Source: Haloplanus salinarum | GTDB taxonomy: Archaea > Halobacteriota > Halobacteria > Halobacteriales > Haloferacaceae | Length of the DNA: 64,000 nucleotides | NCBI RefSeq assembly: GCF_024498175.1 | Contig: NZ_CP101823.1 | Location: 620,001 to 684,000 of the forward strand | Direction of reading: 5' to 3' | Part shown: piece by piece, positions 19,860 through 22,074 of the stretch | Layout of the letters: the number at the start of each line of letters is the position of its first letter | Numbering within the stretch: the first letter of the stretch is position 1 | Notes under the pieces: model-generated | Database searches by the model: none | What the model was told of the DNA's origin: nothing | What the model saw: only the letters and a program-made list of their open reading frames with translations | Translations under genes and position numbers: made by a program

Positions 19860-20600
19860 TCACGCGCAGTCGAGGAACGACGCCAGCATCACCTCGTCGA
19901 CGTACTCGTCGCCGATCCGGTAGTGGTCCTCCCGGACCGCCTCGGTCTCCCAGCCGTGGGCCTCGAGGAACTCGATGGCGGCCTCGTTGGTCGCGGGGAC
20001 GCTGTTGTACAGTTTCTCGAAGTCGTGTTCGCACGCCCACCGGATCCCCCGGTCGAGCAGCGCGCTCCCGATGCCGTGGTCGCGGTAGGTCGGCAGGAGC
20101 CCGACCGTCAACACCGCGGTGTGGGCCAACTTCGCCGTCTCGGGCAGGTCGAGGTGGACCCACCCGACGACGTCCTCGTCGACGCAGGCGACGAACACCA
20201 TCCGCGACCGCACCTCGTTGTGCCGGAGGATAACCTCCTCGTGGTCGAGCAGATCCGCAACCGTCTCCGCTTCGATGTAGGTCCCCTCCTCGGCCACCGA
20301 CCGGATCACGCCGATCAACCCCGAGAGGTCCCGCTGCTGGGCCGCCCGGATGGTGTAGGTGAGGTCCGCCGCGTCGTGTTCCTCCACGTCCTCCTCCCGG
20401 TAGGCCACCCGCAGCGTCTCGCCCTCGCGGCGGATGTACCCGTCGCGGCGCAGGATGGTGACGTGGTGACCGAAGGCCTCCGGATCGAGGTTCAGCGCCC
20501 GGCGTGCCCGGTCCGCCCGGACCTCCCCGTGTGCCTCGACGTAGTCGTAGATGTCCCGGCGGTCCTCGTGGTCGAAGTTCAGTTGCTCGGTCAGTTCCAT
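19860..20600 (-). CDS. Fused HTH-GNAT acetyltransferase
   Basis: A 246-residue protein with a winged-helix-like N-terminal domain (about 1-70: DRRDIYDYVEAHGEVRADRARRALN, then HHVTILRRDGYIRREGETL) joined to a GNAT N-acetyltransferase (about 80-240). The acetyl-CoA loop is LLPTYRDHGIGSALLDRGI, followed by KLYNSVPATNEAAIEFLEAHGW, which is typical of the Rim/peptide-type GNATs. The fusion suggests a DNA-binding acetyltransferase or a self-regulated enzyme. Its substrate cannot be told from sequence. Confidence 0.8.
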   Translation of the reverse strand: MELTEQLNFDHEDRRDIYDYVEAHGEVRADRARRALNLDPEAFGHHVTILRRDGYIRREGETLRVAYREEDVEEHDAADLTYTIRAAQQRDLSGLIGVIRSVAEEGTYIEAETVADLLDHEEVILRHNEVRSRMVFVACVDEDVVGWVHLDLPETAKLAHTAVLTVGLLPTYRDHGIGSALLDRGIRWACEHDFEKLYNSVPATNEAAIEFLEAHGWETEAVREDHYRIGDEYVDEVMLASFLDCA

Positions 20601-20725
20601 GATGACGTGTTACACACTACCGTACTTAATCGTTCGTGACGGCTCGGATCCCGTGGTCCGCCAGGTGCACCGGTGCGCTGACGCCCGTCCGGGGCTCCGT
20701 TTCGTGACCTGCAATCCGATTTGGG

Positions 20726-20734
20726 ATATAATAG
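20726..20734 (+). promoter_or_regulatory. TATA box of the microprotein-lipoprotein operon
   Basis: ATATAATAG around 20726-20734 lies about 29 bases before ATG 20756. In haloarchaea this spacing places the transcription start at the ATG itself, so the microprotein would be read from a leaderless message. Confidence 0.6.
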
Positions 20735-20755
20735 CCGGAGAGGCCATTCCCCCGT

Positions 20756-20866
20756 ATGGACTGGGCCCTCCGGATCCGGAAAGACGTGCCATCCTGGGTA
20801 CTGAAGCTCGTACTGGTCGTTTCCATCCTGACTGTCGCCGGTCTCCAGCAGTTCGACGTGATATGA
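20756..20866 (+). CDS. 36-residue single-pass membrane microprotein
   Basis: ATG 20756 encodes a 36-residue peptide that starts MDWALRIRKDVPSW, continues as one hydrophobic helix (VLKLVLVVSILTVAGL) and ends QQFDVI. The basic N-terminus followed by the helix predicts N-in orientation. Its TGA overlaps the ATG of the lipoprotein gene in an ATATGA junction, the same kind of coupling used by well-supported gene pairs in this window. A TATA box is positioned for leaderless start at this ATG. The function is unknown; it may anchor or assist the beta-propeller lipoprotein. Confidence 0.6.
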   Translation: MDWALRIRKDVPSWVLKLVLVVSILTVAGLQQFDVI

Positions 20867-22074
20867 ACCGACGGGCGTTCCTGTCGACGACGGTCGTCGG
20901 TGCGAGCGTGCTCTCGGGCTGTCTCTCGATGCTCCCGTCCTCGGACCCGGATACGCCCCTGCCGGACGCGCCCACCGGAGCGTGGACACAGTACGGCGCC
21001 GACGGGGCGAACACGCACGCGACGAACGCATCCGGACCACCGAGGGGGAACCTGGCGTGGACGTCGGAGGCTTTCACGCGCTGGCAGCCCGCGGTCGCCG
21101 ACGGGACGGTGTACACGACGAACTTCGATCCCAGCCACGACGGGAGCGCCATCGCACTCGACGCACGGGACGGCACCGAACGGTGGCGAACCACCCTCGA
21201 CGCCAGCGGGGACAACGGGACCGTCGTCGTCGGCGATCGCTGTATCGTGGCGTACGACACGGACCTCGTCGCGCTCGATACCCGGACGGGCGAGCGGGTC
21301 TGGACGGAATCGACGAACGGGTTCGAACGGCTCGCCGCCGACGAAGCCACCGGGACCGTCCTGGTCACGTCCGATATCGGTATCGAAGCGTTCGGGGCCG
21401 CGAACGGGGAGAAACGGTGGGAAACCCACACGGTAGGCCGTCTCACCCACGCGCCCGCAGTCTACGACGGGCGTGTGTTCGCCGTCGGGTACGTCGACGG
21501 AGCGCCGTCGCTCGTCGCCGTCTCGCTGGCGGACGGCTCGGACCACTGGCGGCGCGAACTCGCGTCCGCACCCGAGTCCGCCGCGCCGGTCGCGACCGGG
21601 AATGGGGTGTTCGTCTCCGACGACCGAACGCTCGTCGTCCACGACGGGGAGACCGGCGACCGGGTGCGCGAACTCCGTTCGTTCGGTGATCCCGACCCCG
21701 TGGCCCCCCGGACGGTCGCCGTCGACGACGGGACCGTCTTCCTCACCGGTTCGTTCGGCGCCGCCGCGATCGACGGCGAAACCGGAGCAAAACGGTGGCG
21801 CCGCGACACGTCGGTGTCCAAGCCGGGGATCTGCGTCGGGCAGGAAACGGTCGCGTTCCCGGTCGGCGACCCCGAATTCGCCCCCGGGAAGGAGACGATC
21901 GGCGCGTTCGATCGCGACTCGGGAGAGTTGGCTTGGCACTACGCGTTCGATCCCGGATTCCACCACCAGGTGACGTCACCGCCGGTCCTGGTCGACGGGG
22001 CCGTGTTCTTCACGGCCACCCACATCGACGGTCTCGGGGCCATCGGCGACGTGCCCGCACGGGATCGACGATAG
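20863..22074 (+). CDS. PQQ-repeat beta-propeller lipoprotein
   Basis: A 403-residue exported protein. It starts MNRRAFLSTTVVGASVLSGC: twin-arginine-like RR and a lipobox ending in Cys, so Tat export and lipid anchoring outside the membrane are likely. The rest is a chain of PQQ-like/BamB-like blades (ALDARDGTERWRTTL, ALDTRTGERVWTE, AFDRDSGELAWHYAF). No PQQ-dehydrogenase catalytic residues are recognised, so it is more likely a scaffold or binding protein than an enzyme. The start overlaps the stop of the microprotein gene. Confidence 0.85.
   Translation: MNRRAFLSTTVVGASVLSGCLSMLPSSDPDTPLPDAPTGAWTQYGADGANTHATNASGPPRGNLAWTSEAFTRWQPAVADGTVYTTNFDPSHDGSAIALDARDGTERWRTTLDASGDNGTVVVGDRCIVAYDTDLVALDTRTGERVWTESTNGFERLAADEATGTVLVTSDIGIEAFGAANGEKRWETHTVGRLTHAPAVYDGRVFAVGYVDGAPSLVAVSLADGSDHWRRELASAPESAAPVATGNGVFVSDDRTLVVHDGETGDRVRELRSFGDPDPVAPRTVAVDDGTVFLTGSFGAAAIDGETGAKRWRRDTSVSKPGICVGQETVAFPVGDPEFAPGKETIGAFDRDSGELAWHYAFDPGFHHQVTSPPVLVDGAVFFTATHIDGLGAIGDVPARDRR

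Follow-up and report, generated by a model that had tools for sequence, protein, structure and literature searches.

Bacteria encode small single-pass membrane regulators with known partners, such as CydX, KdpF, MgrB and AcrZ, as well as type I toxin peptides, such as TisB, Ldr and Hok. The microprotein described here, encoded in the genome of the haloarchaeon Haloplanus salinarum, is like the regulators, as these are commonly described, in its size class (about 30-50 residues) and its single helix, whereas it has no fixed neighbour to match their partners. It is like the toxins, at the level of sequence, in being a short, hydrophobic, stand-alone and patchily distributed peptide, but its N-terminal face is strongly conserved.

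The way in which this gene appears to be expressed also has described counterparts. In Haloferax volcanii, 72% of the coding transcripts are reported to be leaderless (PMC4983044). In the same species, overlapping gene pairs are reported to be translated by termination-reinitiation (PMC6728339, PMC10666635), and gaps of about 20 nt to nearly abolish reinitiation (PMC10666635, PMC6728339). Like the leaderless haloarchaeal genes described in PMC4983044, the microprotein gene has a TATA box sited for a transcription start at the ATG, but it has G-rich bases in place of the CGAAA BRE proposed for haloarchaea. With the reinitiation pairs described in PMC6728339 and PMC10666635, the locus shares a -4 nt overlap and a downstream cistron without a visible promoter of its own. 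It differs from those pairs in having as its upstream cistron a mobile microprotein gene of 36 codons that is normally unpaired, and in lacking an SD-like motif before the second start in the window (the whole 64,000-nt stretch of DNA analysed, positions 620,001 to 684,000 of contig NZ_CP101823.1); the coupling proposed for it is read from the sequence.

In the window, all features of the locus lie on the forward strand. The promoter block (20696-20755), composed of an upstream element, GGGA-TATAAT and an initiator region, was delimited as an aligned block by a rise in information content over 40 dereplicated loci. The TATA box TATAAT (20727-20732) lies 29 nt 5' of the ATG at 20756, which opens the 36-codon gene (20756-20866; stop TGA at 20864-20866). 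Homologues, coding constraint and a structural model identify this gene as one for a predicted amphipathic helix and one transmembrane helix, probably leaderless. Its stop overlaps the start of the next gene in an ATGA (20863-20866). That gene (20863-22074) encodes a PQQ_2 beta-propeller lipoprotein of 403 aa, assigned by its orthologues and by Pfam (PF13360, E 1.3e-30); its ATG at 20863 opens a Tat/lipobox start, MNRRAFLSTTVVGASVLSGC. Direct reading thus confirmed both the TATA placement and the overlap that an earlier, sequence-only reading of this DNA had proposed. The lipoprotein frame is open further upstream, but a reading of the microprotein as an N-terminal extension of the lipoprotein was rejected, the Tat/lipobox start being the ATG at 20863. 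The overlap by itself proves nothing, because similar arrangements are frequent in the window: among 69 proxy gene starts (the first ATG in each ORF of 150 aa or more, on either strand), 21 begin with ATGA, and in 6 of these the ATGA closes an ORF that starts with ATG and is 30 aa or longer. The case for a gene therefore rests on conservation, which, unlike the overlap, exceeds chance.

An intact 36-codon copy was found in 34 of the 45 contexts examined, and nearly all homologues have exactly 36 codons. The 45 contexts are not independent, as flanks are common to G359, G212, G303, G327 and G374 and also to G338, G051 and G309b, and G310b duplicates G310. Over the 34 intact copies, pN/pS was 0.264 for the reading frame, compared with 0.50-2.84 for the remaining five, and no copy had an in-frame stop; the eleven rows left out of this count were G096, G139, G106, G007, G010, G338, G309, G051, G305, G309b and G310b. 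The Kyte-Doolittle and nearest-homologue pN/pS analyses used 35 copies, one more, with G007 kept. Over the 40 dereplicated loci, information per site was 1.19 bits in the ORF (1.19, 1.58 and 0.80 bits at codon positions 1, 2 and 3) and 0.06-0.11 bits beyond -60 and past the stop. Eleven residues (M1, D2, W3, R6, K9, D10, V11, L20, I24, L30 and Q31) were invariant in an alignment of 22 rows. The sequence-only reading had named loss of the reading frame as an outcome that would count against it; the frame is conserved. When only the lipoprotein orthologues were considered, the microprotein had appeared not to be conserved, an impression overturned by direct protein search.

No model in Pfam or NCBIfam (E ≤ 1) or in PHROGs (E ≤ 0.001) matched the microprotein, and a search of open-licence PMC text for four of the family's peptide strings retrieved no paper. 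On two annotated plasmids, pSTJ001 of Halobacterium hubeiense and one of Natrinema sp. DC36, no CDS is listed at the microprotein copy, in a gene table that is incomplete by its own description. A non-coding RNA reading was ruled out by the in-frame constraint; Rfam likewise gave no match over 20550-21100 (E ≤ 1), a search that is a weak test of a type I toxin antisense RNA. The frequency of such overlaps (6/69) might favour a chance ORF inside a GC-rich leader. Coding constraint and fixed length over six families, and conservation of the frame at places unlinked to the lipoprotein, make such a chance ORF hardly credible. Judged from these comparisons, the ORF is a real gene, a member of a family in Halobacteriales that encodes single-pass membrane microproteins of 36 residues and so far lacks a model; the sequence-only reading had likewise supposed a one-helix protein without an annotation model. 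It represents a conserved protein family beyond the coverage of the family databases searched.

The family is patchily distributed. A search of 170 genomes of the host's family gave matches in 24 at E ≤ 1 and in 9 at E < 0.01, the window's genome included (best E 5.5e-15). In an evenly drawn sample of the order, queried with the G013 copy, 38 of 392 genomes and 18 of 95 genera matched at E ≤ 0.05, mostly with E values of 1e-19 to 1e-11; among the 38 are a pseudogene (G139) and G007, whose copy has decayed. Profile searches of three families (E ≤ 0.001) found the microprotein in 13/146 (counting one fragment within a longer ORF, G793), 12/125 and 5/28 genomes. In a phylum sample, 17 of 392 genomes matched; every full-length match was within Halobacteriales, and the two matches outside the order were fragments within longer ORFs. 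Full-length homologues of the window copy occur in other genera at 81-83% identity, at sites without the lipoprotein. The G139 pseudogene (L078) has TAG at codon 3 with the TATA box intact, and a serine recombinase lies 471 nt away.

The promoter is conserved together with the ORF. A TATA-like motif was found at -33 to -23 in 19 of the 34 intact copies, beginning exactly at -29 in 18 of them; in each of eight control windows of 10 nt upstream, the count was 0-1 of 34. The simple pattern used found no match in the remaining 15. Information content over the 40 dereplicated loci is about 0.09-0.2 bits upstream of -40 and reaches 0.44 bits at -40 to -20. This recurrent spacing bears out the earlier claim of a promoter positioned for a leaderless ATG, and we infer that the microprotein transcript starts at this ATG. 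G-rich bases (GGGA or GGGG), not a CGAAA-like BRE, precede the TATA box in the window (20722-20732) and in homologues, a feature that could reflect a special transcription factor B or an operator. The pattern of the upstream element, searched with up to 3 mismatches in 8 genomes, was found solely before the microprotein, in 3 of the 8, and therefore gives no hint of a regulon.

The cassette has no visible recombinase, terminal repeats or fixed ends, and genome pairs from different families have little beyond it in common. The copies in G256 (f17) and G211 (f6) are 95.9% identical, with the similarity confined to -52 to +118. Other pairs align over comparable stretches: G038 (f4) and G304 (f12) at 84.9% over -89 to +115, G013 (f1) and G222 (f17) at 81.2% over -30 to +168, and, within one genus, G306 and G054 at 94.8% over -62 to +111. 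The neighbours have no family in common. In a scan of 56 of 73 neighbour proteins, with shared-flank repeats and a few further proteins omitted, the commonest were HATPase_c (5) and TnpB-type proteins (3); a conserved neighbour or a general defence-island association was rejected on these counts. Downstream genes, called by a simple codon-score caller whose context calls contain errors, were co-directional in 16 of 36 cases and convergent in 20. By these comparisons, the microprotein unit behaves as a stand-alone cassette of promoter and ORF, about 170-230 bp long. The heritable and transferable unit is a compact promoter, with its TATA box 29 nt 5' of a probably leaderless ATG, plus the ORF; normally solitary, the cassette has repeatedly turned up at new sites, across families too. 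It presents a remarkably clear example of a minimal mobile gene.

The lipoprotein gene is joined to the microprotein gene in only 4 of the 45 contexts, those of the window (G000), G007, G010 and G106; its orthologue is absent beside the other 41 copies or remnants. Lipoprotein orthologues were drawn from Halorubrum, Halopenitus, Natronomonas, Natrinema and Halorussus. Of the 13 close ones (window, G007, G010, G106, G004 and eight further named genomes), 9 lack the microprotein and have unrelated DNA upstream. The sequence-only reading had pointed to conservation of the ATGA overlap in related genomes as informative, and the overlap recurs in G106, which belongs to another genus, as a direct junction with a lipoprotein 67% identical to that of the window. 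The two junctions are not identical in their present form, because the lipoprotein N-termini differ (MNRR in the window, MSSRINRR in G106). In G007 and G010, both from the window's genus, the TATA box, the 29-nt spacing and the ATG are kept and the coding sequence has decayed. The overlap thus holds directly in the window and G106 and by way of two steps in G007, but not in G010, where the microprotein copy ends at 29 codons and its stop lies 6 nt before a GTG (+6 nt, no -4 overlap). The G010 remnant (L081) was read by eye, the scripted position being a spurious match. In G007, a 7-codon ORF (L080:5100-5123) bridges the decayed microprotein stop to the lipoprotein start with ATGA at both ends, an arrangement that could be a two-step reinitiation relay.

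The best 17-residue Kyte-Doolittle mean is 0.77 in G007, 1.43 in G106 and 2.33 in the window, the range in intact copies being 2.2-2.7. Thus the helix is lost or the ORF truncated in three of the four linked copies (G007, G010 and G106), with promoter, start and overlap or near-overlap kept. The window copy is intact, with a pN/pS of 0.20 to its nearest free-standing homologues. None of the four linked genomes has a TATA-like motif at the lipoprotein start; three of the nine unlinked orthologues (G004, L034 and L038) have one at -27/-28. In the lipoprotein tree, G000, G007 and G010 form a group (97/95) and G106 is placed without support, so that one and two linkage events are indistinguishable from it.

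The sequence-only reading proposed that the microprotein could anchor, insert or regulate the propeller lipoprotein, a partnership in which the overlap would set the ratio of the two. Recurrence of the ATGA overlap in two genera would suit this proposal, and short overlaps are reported to be enriched among subunits of complexes (PMC10666635). Another PQQ_2 protein is encoded 76 nt downstream of the H. hubeiense plasmid copy (L126:5128-6357), but it is just about 30% identical, in pieces, and its position is possibly due to chance, given the number of such genes in haloarchaea. PQQ propellers are indeed abundant: the window's own genome gives 27 matches to the lipoprotein, a large paralogous set. 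Moreover, linkage in only 4 of 45 contexts and 4 of 13 orthologues is not what partners would show, and decay of the microprotein in most linked copies is the opposite of what partnership predicts. The lipoprotein also needs no anchor, because it has its own Tat/lipobox signal. We therefore give up the partnership as quite improbable. The simplest account of the linkage is capture of the promoter and start by the lipoprotein gene. The cassette lies directly 5' of a mobile PQQ_2 lipoprotein gene in the genus of the window and also in G106, where the context differs. A single leaderless transcript would start at the microprotein ATG, the microprotein cistron would load ribosomes, and the lipoprotein would inherit them by termination-reinitiation at the ATGA, as a passenger of the promoter and not a functional partner of the microprotein. 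Most likely, the window microprotein also serves in this way as the leaderless first cistron feeding the lipoprotein. The locus would then show a gene gaining a promoter and translation initiation together by sitting behind a tiny leaderless cistron. A more reduced alternative is that the window ORF is a leftover leader, whose peptide no longer matters and which persists only to load ribosomes as the first cistron. The G007, G010 and G106 copies, which lost their hydrophobic core or length and kept the start and the overlap or near-overlap, fit this alternative. The intact core and low pN/pS of the window copy do not, and we consider it rather unlikely. Being intact at 81-83% identity to its homologues, the window copy suggests that selection on the peptide lasted until recently; therefore, a function of its own may persist beside the leader role. 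The capture account, taken together with the reality and autonomy of the gene as its main parts, appears probable to us. It builds on the homology, exact length, coding constraint and promoter spacing of the copies and on their stand-alone state, spread as a short unit and recurrent overlap; leaderless transcription, reinitiation and membrane topology are conditional steps within it.

The predicted structure of the microprotein consists of two helices, 2-10 and 13-32 (mean pLDDT 90.6). Its charged N-terminus suggests that it probably inserts N-in/C-out, so that the conserved amphipathic helix (MDWxFRIRKDV) would lie on the cytoplasmic face. The conserved N-terminal helix, the exact length and the stand-alone promoter point to a small effector contacting a membrane target; the microprotein probably works through protein contact with a membrane component. 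It may be a membrane regulator, or an exclusion or toxin peptide carried by mobile elements. The patchiness and element contexts leave room for the latter roles, though viral copies are rare in the collections searched.

A peptide spread by plasmids and viruses for the benefit of the mobile element (for example by superinfection exclusion), or as a small membrane toxin, would account for the patchy occurrence in the three profiled families and for the copies on the H. hubeiense and Natrinema sp. DC36 plasmids. It would also account for the G057 copy (L135), which lies in a provirus-like segment with a phage integrase on one side and, about 4.3 kb downstream, a terminase large subunit on the other, and for the G240 copy (L138), which adjoins an integrase. 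However, three scans of IMG/VR found a copy on a single contig, and phage records gave no credible match. In most chromosomal contexts the nearest neighbours include no viral genes, there is no antitoxin-like partner, and no defence family dominates the flanks, TnpB-type proteins excepted. We regard an element-borne peptide as possible, though on the doubtful side. A wider proposal is unlikely: that the recombinase-free cassette of about 170-230 bp moves among chromosomes, plasmids and proviruses as a portable membrane effector, excluding viruses or modulating growth, and that landing before a gene lets its promoter be captured through the ATGA.

Searched against PHROG and Pfam, the proteins of the viral contig gave nothing but HNH and unknown families. 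Its copy has about 86% DNA identity to the G057 and G240 copies over about 210 bp, and these two belong to a DPK-type subgroup. G338 (f4, L117), G051 (f17, L127) and G309 (L141), genomes of two families, have about 8-10 kb in common at 95-96% identity; for G338 and G051 the figures are about 10 kb and 96%. This shared segment carries a promoterless microprotein copy in which ACG replaces the ATG, and it also encodes a large protein of PHROG 38717 (DUF499).
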